From Hydrogenivirga caldilitoris (GTDB lineage: Bacteria; Aquificota; Aquificia; Aquificales; Aquificaceae), in assembly GCF_003664005.1 (NCBI RefSeq), contig NZ_RCCJ01000001.1:1054001-1118000 (forward strand): a stretch of DNA of 64,000 bases, written 5' to 3'. The notes under the pieces were generated by a model. The model had not been told where the DNA came from. It saw nothing but the letters and a program-made list of their open reading frames with translations, and ran no database searches. The position numbers were made by a program, and so were the translations under genes. Positions 3,322 through 14,435 of this stretch are shown piece after piece. The first letter of the stretch is position 1, and each line of letters opens with the position of its first letter.

Positions 3322-4804
3322 TTATTTTATATGAGAAGGGATACCGGCTCTCCTGCTCGTTAAAAAGAGAAAGAAGAGTGTGAGCATTATGCTGAGGAGA
3401 CTTATGTAGGAGGCTATTTTGAGTGCATCCTGAACGGCGTAGATACCGGCAAGGGTGTTCTGAAGTCTCGCCAGCATGAGTTTGAACTTGAGGGAGAAAT
3501 CAGCGATGTCCTGACCGGAAAGGAAGGCTCTCAGGGCGTTTATTTCATCGTAATGAAAAGCTCTTCCGGTCTCAAACTGGTAGGTTGCTATTGATGTGGC
3601 AAAGGAAGCTCCCATGAGTCTTGCGTAGTTATAGACTGCAGAGCCGATGGGAATCTGAAGGGGCTTTAAGCTCTTAAAGGCAAGGGCTGTGAGGGGAGAA
3701 AAGAAGAAGCCCATGGCAAAACCGAGGAGACATAGGTAAAGGAATATCTTGGCTTTCGGTGTTTCGTAATCAAGGTGGGAGAGGAAGAAGAAGAGGGCTA
3801 TAAATAGTGTGCTCTGGGATACGAGAAGGAGGAGCTTTGGTTCCATCCTGTCGCTCAGCCTTCCACCTACGAGGGCAAAGAGGGCTAAAAAGAAGGCAAA
3901 ACCCACAAACTGCAAGCCCGTCTGAAAGGTGGGTACGTCCCTGAGCCTCTCAAAGTATATGGGTATTAGGTATATAGTCTGGAAGAACACAAACCCGTAA
4001 ACCAGCACAAAGGTTATAAAGGCATACAGGTAGTTGGGTTCTTTGAAGATGCTGTAATCAATAAGCTTTCTTTCGCTGATAAGCTCGGACACCATGAAAA
4101 GAAGAAAGGTAAGCAGGGCTATATAAAAAACGTAAAAAGTCTTGTCCGAATAAAACCAACCCCAGCTCTCGCCCTTTGAGAGAAAGACTATGAAGCTTAC
4201 GGAGGAAACCGAGAGGAGCGTGTAACTGAGCAAGTTAAAGGGAACGGGTTTCCTTTCCCCTATATCGGGAAGGAAGAAGTATGCAACGGGTATCAGCAGC
4301 ACTATGACGGGCAGGTTCATGTAGAATATCCACCTCCAGGAGAAGTACTCTACGAAGTAACCCCTACGGCGGGTCCAAGACCGGGTGCAAAAGCTACAGC
4401 CATGGCGTAAAAGCCCATAGCCGTTCCCCTACTCTCAGGGGGGAAGAGGCTGAAGAGTATGGATTGGGAGGAGGGTATCAGGAGACCTTCCCTATTCCCT
4501 GCAAAAAGCGGGAGGCTATCATGAACTCCAGACTTCCCGCCTGACCGGAAAGAGCGCTGCCAAGTCCGAACAGAGAGAGTCCGAGGACGTAGGTGTTCTT
4601 GAGTCCTATCCTTGAGCTGAGAGCACTGAAGGCGAGTATTGTTATGGCGGTTGCGGTTATGTAACTTATAGCGACCCATTCTATACCGTATATATCCGTC
4701 TGGAGAGGAGCTATCATCTTGGGTATGGCTACGTTGGTGCTGGTTATCCCCAGGACGGCAAGAAAGGTTCCGAGAACTATCAGGAATGTATAGAACCAGA
4801 CCAT
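3322..4804 (-). pseudogene. DHA2-family MFS drug exporter with two single-base frameshifts
   Basis: Three reading frames together encode one multidrug exporter of the EmrB/QacA type. The N-terminal piece starts at the ATG at 4804 and runs through RFLQGIG. The middle piece, from GLLIPSSQS to GPAVG, is in another frame. The C-terminal piece from MNLPVIV onward is in a third. The frames are restored by adding one G in the run at about 4490-4492 and one G in the run at 4361-4364 (both G on the minus strand). With these two bases the length becomes 1485, exactly 495 codons, with about 14 membrane segments, as the DHA2 family has. Both losses fall in homopolymers, so sequencing error is as likely as true decay. 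It lies 3 bases after nadA. Confidence 0.8.
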
Positions 4805-5835: not shown

Positions 5836-6393
5836 ATGGGAAGAGTAGTGCTCGCTTCAGCCTCACCGAGGAGGAGGGAGATACTTTCCCTGTTGGGAAT
5901 AGAGTTTGAAGTCGTCCCTTCCGGGATAGAGGAGCATACCCATGGGGACCCCATAACGACGGCGAGGAGGCTGTCCTACGAAAAGGCTCTGGACGTCTGG
6001 AAGAGTAATAAGGACGCTCTCGTGATAGGGGCGGATACCCTTGTCTTCGTTGGCAAGGAGATAATAGGAAAACCAAGGGACGAGGAGGAAGCCTTTCAGA
6101 CCCTCTCTTTCCTTTCGGGGAGGTGGCACAGGGTGGTGACGGCGGTCTCCTTTGTCTCTAAAGGTTTCAGAAAAACGGTCCACGACGTTGCGAGGGTTAA
6201 GTTCAGAAAGCTGTCCGGGGAGGAGATAAGGTTTTACATATCCACCGGTGAGCCGATGGACAAGGCTGGAGCTTATGGGGTTCAGGGCTTTGGAGCCACA
6301 ATAGTTGAGAGGATAGAGGGGAACTTTTACACGGTCATGGGTCTTCCCATCCACAAGGTCTATGAGGTTTTGAGGAAACTCACCATGTCATAG
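5836..6393 (+). CDS. maf: Maf-like nucleoside triphosphate pyrophosphatase
   Basis: Maf proteins hydrolyse non-canonical or specific nucleoside triphosphates (dTTP, UTP or modified forms) to monophosphates and pyrophosphate, and act as house-cleaning enzymes. The 185-residue product matches the family length. It has the N-terminal nucleotide/phosphate motif VLASASPRRREIL, the conserved GADTLVF with the presumed catalytic Asp, and the C-terminal KAGAYGVQGFGA. It is divergent from nadA, 59 bases away. Which subgroup it belongs to (YhdE or YceF type) cannot be settled by eye. Confidence 0.93.
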   Translation: MGRVVLASASPRRREILSLLGIEFEVVPSGIEEHTHGDPITTARRLSYEKALDVWKSNKDALVIGADTLVFVGKEIIGKPRDEEEAFQTLSFLSGRWHRVVTAVSFVSKGFRKTVHDVARVKFRKLSGEEIRFYISTGEPMDKAGAYGVQGFGATIVERIEGNFYTVMGLPIHKVYEVLRKLTMS

Positions 6394-6416
6394 AAAAGCC
6401 TTATTTTTTACCTGAG

Positions 6417-7184
6417 ATGGAAGAAGAGAAAGACCTGGGGAATGCGTGGGAGTACAGAGGATGCATAATCCCGAAAGAGCTTTACTACTATATAGACCTA
6501 CAGGTCTGGGTAAAGGTGAATGAGGACGGCACCGTATCTTTGGGAATTACAGAGGTTGGACAGACCAGAGCCGGGAAAATACTCCACATCCGGGTTAAAC
6601 CTGAAGGTAAGGAGGTCAGTAAGGGAAAACCCGTTGCTACCCTGGAGAGCGGAAAGTGGGCTGGACCTATCCCTGCTTTGGTTGAAGGCAAGATAGTAGA
6701 TGTGAACGAGAAGGTTCTTGATTCTCCCGAAATTTTAAATTTGGACCCTTACGGAGAGTGGATAGTGAAGCTAAAACCTTTGAGTGAGGAAACCCTTAAG
6801 AGAGACTTAAGCGAGCTGGTGAGCGGCGAAAAAGCGTATGAGGAGATGAAAAACTACATAGGAGAGTGGGATATCATATGTATGAAGTGTGTAGAGGAGG
6901 AGCTTTACAAGAGAAAACCTGAGAAGTCACTTAGACCTCAAGACAGGCACGTAATACTCTTAACAGCAACGTGGTGTTCGGCAAGTCAAGAAGCGGACGC
7001 CATGTGGAGGAGGTTTAAGGAAGAACTTGGGTTTAAGTATGAAGCCTTAGATGTTGAAACGCCAGAGGGAAGATTTTGGGTCACGAAATTCCTAATAAAG
7101 AGTGTCCCTACCACTATCGTTGATAGAAACATCGCTTTTGTGGGCGTTCCGAAAGAAGAAGAGATAAGAGAGCTCATAACCTAA
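6417..7184 (+). CDS. GcvH-like lipoyl domain fused to a one-cysteine thioredoxin-like domain
   Basis: Residues about 20-140 align with the H protein of glycine cleavage: WVKVNEDGTVSLGITEVGQ, then ESGKWAGPIPA where the Lys matches the lipoylated Lys of GcvH, then EGKIVDVNE, LDSPEILN and DPYGEWIVKL. Such GcvH relatives include LbpA of the sulfur-oxidising sHdr pathway. A linker holds CMKC. Residues about 175-255 look like a thioredoxin fold: VILLTATWCSASQEA sits where WCxxC should be but keeps only the first Cys, and VPTTIV supplies the cis-Pro turn. No glycine-cleavage or hdr genes are in the window. No Shine-Dalgarno is clear before the ATG. A DUF488 gene follows 12 bases on. Function is unknown; redox or sulfur transfer is an inference. 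Confidence 0.8.
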   Translation: MEEEKDLGNAWEYRGCIIPKELYYYIDLQVWVKVNEDGTVSLGITEVGQTRAGKILHIRVKPEGKEVSKGKPVATLESGKWAGPIPALVEGKIVDVNEKVLDSPEILNLDPYGEWIVKLKPLSEETLKRDLSELVSGEKAYEEMKNYIGEWDIICMKCVEEELYKRKPEKSLRPQDRHVILLTATWCSASQEADAMWRRFKEELGFKYEALDVETPEGRFWVTKFLIKSVPTTIVDRNIAFVGVPKEEEIRELIT

Positions 7185-7196
7185 GGAGGATGTGGG

Positions 7197-7550
7197 TTGA
7201 TTAAAGTCAAAAGAATCTATGAAAAACCGTCAGAAGAAGACGGACTCCGCATATTGGTAGACAGGCTGTGGCCAAGAGGGATAAAAAGAGAAGACGCAAG
7301 GGTTGACCTCTGGTTAAAGGAAATAGCACCCTCAGATGAGCTAAGGAGATGGTTTTCCCACAGGAGCGAGAGATGGGAAGGATTTAAAAGAAAGTACAAA
7401 GAGGAACTAAAGGGGAAAAAGGAATTAATAGAGCGGATAAAAGAGCTTGAAAGCAAGCATGGAACCGTAACGCTCCTGTTCTCAGCCAGGGATACTGAAC
7501 ACAATAACGCCGTTGTTTTAATGGAGGTGATAGAGGAAGGGAGCTGGTGA
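7197..7550 (+). CDS. DUF488 (YeaO-like) protein
   Basis: The 117-residue product belongs to the DUF488 family, recognised by RILVDRLWPRGI near the N-terminus, WLKEIAPSDELRRWFSH in the middle and TLLFSARDTEHNNA near the end. The biochemical role of this family is not established; it has been linked loosely to oxidative and metal stress. The start is TTG at 7197, supported by AAGGAGG seven bases upstream; the ATG at 7190 reads into an immediate stop. The short gap to the lipoyl/thioredoxin fusion suggests co-transcription. Confidence 0.88.
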   Translation: MIKVKRIYEKPSEEDGLRILVDRLWPRGIKREDARVDLWLKEIAPSDELRRWFSHRSERWEGFKRKYKEELKGKKELIERIKELESKHGTVTLLFSARDTEHNNAVVLMEVIEEGSW

Positions 7551-7560
7551 ACCCTCAATT

Positions 7561-8055
7561 TCACCGCAGGAGTGTTTCAAAGAGCATCTCATTTCCCTCA
7601 ACGGAAACCTTTATCCTGTCGGGTAGTCCATCGTACGTATTAAACTCCCTGTCCCTCTCATAGACCCTTATACTGAAGTCGTGGAAGGTGGCAACCCTCT
7701 GAAGCTTATCCTCCTCTATCTCGTCTATCGCTCCGTAAGGATAAGGGAACTCGTAGTAGTAGAGCCTCCCGTCTTTGAATATGTAAGCGCACTTGACCAC
7801 CCCCCGATAGATGGTTCCTCCGCTCGTTATCATATAGAGGTTGTTGTTCTCTACCCTTATCCTCTTAGCTCCAGTTATCTTCCTCTGTATGTCCCAGAAG
7901 AGGGAAGCCTTAAGCTTCAGCCTTTCCGATTCCTCCGTTATACCAAGGCTTGAGTCTATGCCCCTTGAGAAGACCAGGAGGAGGGCGGAGAAGGTCAGTC
8001 CGAGGAGGGTGAGGACTACGAGAACCTCTATTAGGGTGAAAGCTCTAACCTTCAT
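7561..8055 (-). CDS. Type II secretion/type IV pilus-like pseudopilin (GspJ-like)
   Basis: The product begins MKVRAFTLIEVLVVLTLL, a short leader followed directly by the prepilin-peptidase and methylation site with Glu5, then one membrane helix and a soluble domain of about 130 residues. The length (164) and beta-rich C-terminal part suit a minor pseudopilin such as GspJ or GspH rather than the major one. It starts inside the last codons of the GGDEF-EAL gene (11-base overlap), and is the last gene of the run leuS beta, gspG, gspI-like, GGDEF-EAL, gspJ-like. Its leader would be cut by the prepilin peptidase at 14641-15393. Confidence 0.82.
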   Translation of the reverse strand: MKVRAFTLIEVLVVLTLLGLTFSALLLVFSRGIDSSLGITEESERLKLKASLFWDIQRKITGAKRIRVENNNLYMITSGGTIYRGVVKCAYIFKDGRLYYYEFPYPYGAIDEIEEDKLQRVATFHDFSIRVYERDREFNTYDGLPDRIKVSVEGNEMLFETLLR

Positions 8056-13730: not shown

Positions 13731-14129
13731 ATGAACCCGCTGACGAAATTGAACTTGCTCCTGAGTTTTCTGTACCTGCTTATAGGAAGCTCTCTGGGTC
13801 TTATGCTCGGCTTTGAACCCGCACGAAACTTTCTATACTCGTTGAAAGGCATTCCATCTTACGCCCACGCTCATATACAGCTTGTTGGGTTCGTTACCCA
13901 GATGATAGTTGGAGTTACATACCATATAATCCCGATGTTAACCAGGGGAAAAGTTTACAGCTTCAGGCTGGGTTACTTACATACAGCTCTGCTGAATGTC
14001 GGTCTTGCGCTCCAAATTTACGGGTTTCTGTCCGGTAATCCCTACTTCAAAGCCCTGGGTTCCCTGATTTTGTTCTTGGCAATTTTAATGTATATCTTCA
14101 ACATCTTAAAAAGCGGAGTCTGGAGGTGA
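13731..14129 (+). CDS. Small four-helix membrane protein, haem-copper-oxidase/NnrS-like
   Basis: The 132-residue product has four membrane helices. The second carries HAHIQLVGFVTQMIVGVTYH, a His pattern like that of haem-binding helices in NorB, cbb3 oxidase subunit I and NnrS-type proteins, so haem binding is plausible. I cannot name it. It starts a tight cluster with a cupin (3-base gap) and a ScdA N-terminal-domain protein, which suggests a role in nitric oxide response. There is no Shine-Dalgarno before the ATG; the promoter region with an FNR-like site lies immediately upstream. Confidence 0.65.
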   Translation: MNPLTKLNLLLSFLYLLIGSSLGLMLGFEPARNFLYSLKGIPSYAHAHIQLVGFVTQMIVGVTYHIIPMLTRGKVYSFRLGYLHTALLNVGLALQIYGFLSGNPYFKALGSLILFLAILMYIFNILKSGVWR

Positions 14130-14132
14130 ATC

Positions 14133-14435
14133 ATGAAACATAGCCTTTCAAGCTTTTTTCCCACATCCTCTCAGTTAAAGAAGGCTCTCCTGGTAGATTC
14201 CAAGGAGGCAAGGGTTATAGTGTTCTCTATGCCTGCAGGCAGTGAGATACCGGCTCACACAAGTCCTGCCAGAGTGCTTCTATACTGTGCCAAGGGAAGC
14301 GGTAAGTTTCTCAAAGGTGAGGAATGGATAGAGGTAGAGGAGGGAGACCTCGTCCCCTGTGAACCGCTGGAGCCTCACGGAATGAAAGCCGACAAGGACA
14401 TGGTGGTCATGGCGGTGATAGCACCTGCACCTTGA
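14133..14435 (+). CDS. Single-domain cupin protein
   Basis: The 100-residue product is a small cupin barrel: PAHTSPARVLLYCAKGSGKF gives the first cupin motif with one His, and GDLVPCEPLEPHGMKA the second, again with a His. Metal binding is therefore possible but the full His-His-Glu-His set is not present. Function is unknown. It lies between the haem-type membrane protein and the ScdA-domain protein, 3 and 13 bases away. Confidence 0.75.
   Translation: MKHSLSSFFPTSSQLKKALLVDSKEARVIVFSMPAGSEIPAHTSPARVLLYCAKGSGKFLKGEEWIEVEEGDLVPCEPLEPHGMKADKDMVVMAVIAPAP

Follow-up and report, generated by a model that had tools for sequence, protein, structure and literature searches.

The window, a stretch of 64,000 nucleotides from Hydrogenivirga caldilitoris (contig NZ_RCCJ01000001.1, positions 1,054,001 to 1,118,000), contains an ATG-initiated ORF, free of internal stop codons, that encodes a single chain in which a GcvH/LbpA-type lipoyl domain is joined to a thioredoxin fold with one cysteine (Table 1). 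Structural modelling, Pfam and Foldseek were concordant on this organization. The N-terminal half matched the GCV_H family and the C-terminal half (residues 182-254) matched Thioredoxin_3, both above the curated Pfam cut-offs. The cysteines of the protein are C16, C155, C158 and C187, the last of these being the only one in the thioredoxin (Trx) half, with a serine at the position of the resolving cysteine. Lys80, in an ESGKWAG motif, was in register with the lipoyl-lysine of solved H-proteins and with the lysine of every aligned LbpA row, and would be expected to be lipoylated. The AlphaFold model, based on an input alignment of 34 rows, had a mean pLDDT of 87 and a pTM of 0.60. It consisted of a GcvH fold (residues 1-150), a disordered stretch (157-167) and a beta-alpha-beta-alpha-beta-beta-alpha unit (178-254) corresponding to a complete thioredoxin fold, the placement of the lipoyl domain relative to the Trx domain being uncertain in the model. 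In a Foldseek search of the PDB with the fused protein, H-proteins were the top matches (E ~1e-12), followed by thioredoxins (E ~1e-4). The initial annotation had described a lipoyl domain with its lysine at the lipoylation position and a C-terminal thioredoxin-like fold with a single cysteine, and would have been abandoned had the lysine lain elsewhere or the predicted C-terminal structure not resembled thioredoxin; neither was encountered, and both domains are as described.

Table 1. Features of the fused gene and its surroundings (positions in the window).
Feature	Position	Strand	Basis
lbpA1-trx fusion gene, 255 aa	6417..7184	+	Pfam, AlphaFold, Foldseek; sole fused copy among 136 Aquificota genomes
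Cys16, N-terminal, LbpA mark, not in GcvH	6462..6464	+	Invariant in aligned LbpA rows; LbpA hallmark per PMC6067878
GCV_H/LbpA lipoyl domain, residues 24-145	6486..6851	+	PF01597 E=7e-38; Foldseek to 1onl, 3ab9
Lys80, expected lipoylation site	6654..6656	+	Aligned to H-protein lipoyl-Lys; invariant in LbpA1
C155-M-K-C158, the conserved LbpA1 C-terminal CMRC motif	6879..6890	+	CMRC at end of every Trx-paired LbpA1; also on Acidithiobacillus plasmid
Linker, residues 159-176, mostly disordered, no in-frame ATG/GTG/TTG	6891..6944	+	pLDDT <50 at 157-167; sequence
AGGAGGAG, possible ribosome-binding-site remnant of formerly separate trx	6895..6902	+	Inferred from sequence
Thioredoxin-fold domain, residues 177-255	6945..7181	+	Thioredoxin_3 E=3.7e-7; 56-60% identity to separate Trx proteins; fold
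WCSAS active-site stretch, Cys187 retained, resolving Cys replaced by Ser190	6972..6986	+	WC[PA]TC in all separate homologues
Pro231, thioredoxin cis-Pro position, retained	7107..7109	+	Invariant column
DUF488 gene, co-inserted, 12 bases 3' of fusion, probably same operon	7197..7550	+	Pfam PF22752/PF04343
Inserted block (fusion and DUF488), bounded by maf (5836-6393) and the convergently oriented gspH-like gene (7561-8055)	6394..7560		maf and gspH-like genes adjoining in seven block-less relatives

The fused protein is derived from a conserved lbpA1-trx gene pair, which is a more general finding than the fusion itself. We searched 61 related genomes, and a Trx profile was used to search 136 Aquificota genomes; it matched 56 of the 136, all from Aquificaceae, two of these matches being contig-end fragments. 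Everywhere but in the window, the Trx stood alone (roughly 85-95 aa in most genomes). The trx gene lay directly downstream of lbpA1 in every locus read with both genes complete, and all but one of the 24 junctions read had a TGATG overlap or a spacing of 0-1 base, suggesting translational coupling of the two genes. All the separate Trx proteins read were small dithiol thioredoxins that kept WC[PA]TC (within WC[PA]TCP), indicating that the dithiol form is ancestral. Likewise, every Trx-paired LbpA1 read terminated in CMRC plus one residue, and CMKC, initially annotated as the linker, is therefore the native LbpA1 tail, the true linker following it. No other fused frame was found among the 136 genomes, but the design stands less on its own than initially thought, its two halves being encoded by separate, coupled genes in every relative examined. 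The origin in a gene pair, the ancestral dithiol form and the status of the fusion as a fast-evolving singleton had been missed.

LbpA proteins are essential for sHdr sulfur oxidation in Hyphomicrobium, and bacterial sHdr clusters contain no apparent dihydrolipoamide dehydrogenase gene (PMC6067878). Judging from match spacing, an lbpA1-trx-lbpA2 block lies within the sHdr cluster in seven genera (g2, g3, g5, g6, g9, g10 and g11). In two genomes (G031 and G018), the gene order was HdrB2 - lbpA1 - trx - DsrE - lbpA2, with a LipS-type radical SAM gene after lbpA2 in G031. The pair was sited outside the sHdr cluster in g1 (the window genome), g4 (G019) and g8. The window genome has a complete separate lbpA1-trx pair at 1,640 kb and, elsewhere, a complete sHdr cluster with TusA, DsrE, HdrC1-B1-A-C2-B2, LbpA2 and LipS1, in addition to LplA-type ligases and lipoamide dehydrogenase. 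No sulfur genes were found among the window neighbours of the fused gene. The initially proposed tie to sulfur oxidation is thus indirect but real: it holds for the un-fused pair in the sHdr clusters of the seven genera, and not for the surroundings of the fused gene.

Several other features were recorded. A third LbpA type, with the tail CGEE..ISKKFY, is encoded away from the sHdr cluster, beside an aldolase-like gene, in the window genome (L032:9757-10239) and in G019 (L037:9334-9825). A gene in a formate-dehydrogenase neighbourhood (L034:8619-9152, strand -; G000, about 1,271,618) encodes a GcvH-like protein, possibly an exported one of the lipoyl type, which has an N-terminus of the Tat type (RRDFIKA) and a conserved lysine (VEAGKRIA). 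Within the window, an MFS-type transporter appears to be split into pieces in different frames at 3322-4804, strand - (4478-4804, 4350-4679 and 3322-4320), and is likely a frameshifted gene. A short COX1-like membrane protein gene is followed by a cupin gene at 13731-14435; in g4 and g8, too, cupin genes are found near the separate lbpA1-trx pair (L036, L038).

The LbpA half of the fused protein is under purifying selection. Of 68 invariant sites, 59 were retained in it, and the substitutions at the other nine were conservative in all but one case; among four control LbpA copies, three retained every invariant site and one, of the Aquifex type, had lost a single site, with one divergent genus set apart. 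Differences from the nearest LbpA1 at the three codon positions were 19, 10 and 56%. dS between the fused gene and its relatives was saturated, and no dN/dS ratio was therefore obtained. The Trx half has been fast-evolving, through either remodelling or relaxation. It retained 26 of 42 invariant sites, and five of the losses (V183T, S184A, T189A, C190S and P191Q) lie at the active site, raising the possibility that redox function has been lost. The active-site stretch was not significantly more eroded than the remainder of this half (4/9 versus 22/33 sites kept, P=0.27). The exchange of Cys187 with the lipoyl dithiol of the same chain, as initially proposed, is plausible. The strongest rival to such lipoyl-Trx exchange sees the Trx half as a degenerating or redox-dead adaptor: after duplication or transfer followed by fusion, thiol-disulfide activity would have been lost, and the lipoyl half alone would be used, as a spare LbpA1. 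This would fit the great length of the Trx branch (4.46 changes per column versus a median end branch of 0.037), the disappearance of 16 of the 42 invariant sites, C190 and P191 included, and the presence of a complete separate pair elsewhere in the genome. We nevertheless consider it somewhat unlikely, given that W186, C187 and cis-P231 are retained, that the Trx half differs far less at second codon positions (16-19%) than at third ones (51-65%), and that the frame is intact, the chance of no stop being about 0.1 per half under a neutral substitution model.

Beyond Aquificota, the plasmid collection contained one close set, on plasmids of Acidithiobacillus ferrooxidans (NZ_AP025161.1 and NZ_CP040512.1; L100/L101). 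These plasmids encode an LbpA that ends in CMRC and shares 47% identity with the Aquifex-type LbpA1, and a Trx with WCPVCP (44% identical; the only Trx matches in the collection), indicating that the pairing is not confined to Aquificaceae. The cluster also encodes a globin, an FAD/2Fe-2S reductase, hemerythrins, DUF2249, HdrB-like and DUF488 proteins, a CMD-family (AhpD-like) protein with CAFC, Crp/Fnr, Hcp and NnrS. In tblastn searches, none of the plasmid or phage records spanned both domains, and the matches of the fused protein in a contig scan were limited to ordinary GcvH of two archaeal MAGs. The plasmid context suggests nitric oxide rather than sulfur, hinting at a role for LbpA beyond sulfur oxidation. 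LbpA1-Trx might thus serve in nitrosative or oxidative stress (denitrosylation, or repair of peroxide or NO damage) rather than in sulfur oxidation, with the fusion being an accessory stress gene together with DUF488. Besides the NO-type plasmid genes, two observations would accord with such a role: in g1 and g8, the separate pair adjoins a membrane protein with weak similarity to NnrS, and thioredoxin and lipoic acid both denitrosate S-nitrosothiols, according to a passage of PMC9598160 citing Stoyanovsky (2005). This role is distinctly unlikely, however, because seven Aquificaceae genera have the pair within the sHdr cluster and because the similarity of the g1/g8 protein to NnrS is too weak to serve as proof: the match scores below the Pfam cut-off, and the protein does not align with the plasmid NnrS. 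The window and plasmid DUF488 proteins also belong to different subclades: Pfam assigns the former to the inactive N3 subclade (PF22752), and the latter mainly matches the general DUF488 model.

A kinship with LbpA, suggested at the outset, was supported by both cysteines and phylogeny. LbpA proteins carry two cysteines that GcvH lacks (PMC6067878), and the invariant Cys16 and Cys155 of the fused protein, which has a GcvH-type lipoyl domain with the lipoylation lysine, match this N- and C-terminal pair. In the phylogenetic tree, the LbpA half was placed with LbpA1, inside the Aquifex-like group (support 98/87), on a long end branch (0.38). The hdr-like cluster context of LbpA genes is lacking, the window neighbours being maf, DUF488 and gsp genes, and the protein is therefore classified as a relocated LbpA1-derived protein rather than a proven sHdr component. 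LbpA proteins are lipoylated by sLpl(AB), LipS1 and LipS2 and not by the GcvH machinery, and the window genome encodes LipS1 and ligases. The Trx half has a thioredoxin fold with a cis-Pro, but no CxxC dithiol, C187 alone being left, and is thus a thioredoxin-fold CxxS domain rather than a classical thioredoxin. That the fused protein is an ordinary H protein of glycine cleavage with an irrelevant tail is highly improbable: GcvH models were the best general ones, the broader subfamily model PRK01202 was passed (122.9 versus 117) and H-proteins were the top structural matches, but the score for the gcvH equivalog TIGR00527 fell below the cut-off (74.8 versus 115.85 bits), both LbpA cysteines are present, the lipoyl half clusters with Trx-paired LbpA1 and there is no gcvP or gcvT gene near the fused gene in the window. 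Other LbpA proteins are reportedly unable to complement a gcvH deletion.

The fused copy is an extra one, present besides the separate pair in the same genome. The nesting of its LbpA half within Aquifex-like LbpA1 and the three-residue insertion SEETLKRDLSEL common to both make an Aquifex-like donor likely, although the exact position in the tree is uncertain, given the long branch. The fusion and the DUF488 gene form a lineage-specific insertion: in seven genomes of the same genus, the maf and gspH-like genes abut or lie close together, with no gene between them. The DUF488 gene is absent from the 16 other genomes of the genus and present in nine of the 136 genomes of the phylum. The fusion junction reads TGT-GTA-GAGGAGGAG-CTT-TAC-AAG, with an apparent ribosome-binding remnant, and the fusion could be explained by loss of one TG from TGTGTGTAG together with loss of the start codon. 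With no usable start codon between the LbpA1 tail and the Trx core, the Trx half would hardly be made alone. A sequencing or assembly artefact joining two genes is barely credible, for although two extra bases at 6888-6891 (TGTG to TGTGTG) would place a stop right after CMKC-V, no in-frame ATG, GTG or TTG precedes the Trx core, a split Trx would lack a start codon, and the genome is in a single contig.

We tentatively favour, at close to an even chance, the interpretation that LbpA1 is the redox partner of Trx and that Cys187 of the fusion forms an adduct which is resolved within the same chain, by the lipoyl dithiol or CMKC. Dihydrolipoamide dehydrogenase and NAD(H) would keep the lipoyl group, presumably carried by Lys80, in its reduced or oxidised state, and the lipoyl dithiol would act as the redox partner of thioredoxin. 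In the separate pair, the dithiol Trx would exchange electrons or sulfane sulfur with LbpA1, by way of either its lipoyl group or its CMRC tail. In the fused protein, Cys187 would attack the substrate at a disulfide, a persulfide or another thiol adduct, with resolution in cis by the lipoyl dithiol or CMKC rather than by a second Trx cysteine. Tethered thiols standing in as the resolver would explain the loss of that cysteine. The partnership is supported by the coupling of the genes and the occurrence of the Trx in Aquificaceae, by the siting of the pair in sHdr clusters, where it is flanked by HdrB2 on one side and on the other by a DsrE gene, itself adjoining LbpA2, and by the independent co-localisation of CMRC-LbpA and a related Trx on Acidithiobacillus plasmids. 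Also in favour are the retention of K80, C16, C155, C158, C187 and P231, and of most LbpA sites, and the sHdr cluster, LipS1, LplA-type ligases and lipoamide dehydrogenase of the window genome. Against the scheme, sulfur genes are lacking around the fused gene, which is a single copy in one species and has an eroded Trx half; the relative domain placement in the model is uncertain, and the Acidithiobacillus cluster points to nitric oxide. A broader proposal is rather doubtful. It regards the fusion as a single-chain machine for redox chemistry or sulfur transfer, the work of one Trx active site being divided among a lipoyl swinging arm, a CxxC tail and a one-cysteine Trx: Cys187 would capture the substrate, and the lipoyl dithiol or CMKC of that chain would resolve it. 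The fusion would then exemplify an undescribed lipoyl-Trx partnership, between a CMRC-tailed LbpA and a dedicated Trx, common to Aquificota and Acidithiobacillia. Term counts found no mention of thioredoxin in the two main LbpA papers. The gene pair and its natural fusion provide the LbpA lipoyl group with a candidate specific partner, bearing on how, in the sHdr pathway, substrate is loaded onto this group and how the group is oxidised or reduced again. In this heat-loving Aquificaceae bacterium, the joining of two neighbouring genes into one protein with a single active Trx cysteine left points to a direct lipoyl-thioredoxin partnership, and the natural CxxS fusion would be a ready-made trap for a partner or substrate.

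Among the closest known counterparts is GcvH3 of Aquifex aeolicus (aq_944, O67080; assigned by mass, 18.1 kDa computed versus 18.1 kDa in PMC10052474) with its downstream thioredoxin: the lipoyl half is 74-77% identical within the genus, with the same SEETLKRDLSEL insertion, a CMRC tail and the same gene order, but the genes are separate, with a TGATG overlap, and the thioredoxin has a dithiol WCPTC. The sHdr LbpA proteins described by Cao et al. 2018 (PMC6067878) likewise have a GcvH-like fold, a lipoyl lysine and one N-terminal and one C-terminal conserved cysteine; they are single-domain proteins, whereas the window protein has a second tail cysteine (C158) and a fused Trx domain. Small thioredoxins of the Thioredoxin_3 or MJ0307 type share the fold, the W-C nucleophile and the cis-Pro with the Trx half, which differs in having CxxS rather than CxxC and in being tethered to a lipoyl domain. 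The Acidithiobacillus ferrooxidans plasmids have CMRC-LbpA, Trx and DUF488 in one cluster, as near the window fusion, but there LbpA and Trx come from separate genes on either side of a hemerythrin gene, in nitric-oxide-type surroundings. Finally, a precedent comes from the actinobacterial Lpd-SucB-AhpD chain, where NADH, Lpd and lipoylated SucB together reduce a dithiol reductase of the AhpD type (PMC10460364). There, too, a lipoyl protein reduces a thioredoxin-like dithiol protein; the chain involves another lipoyl protein and an AhpD-type reductase, its partners are unfused and the dithiol is required.
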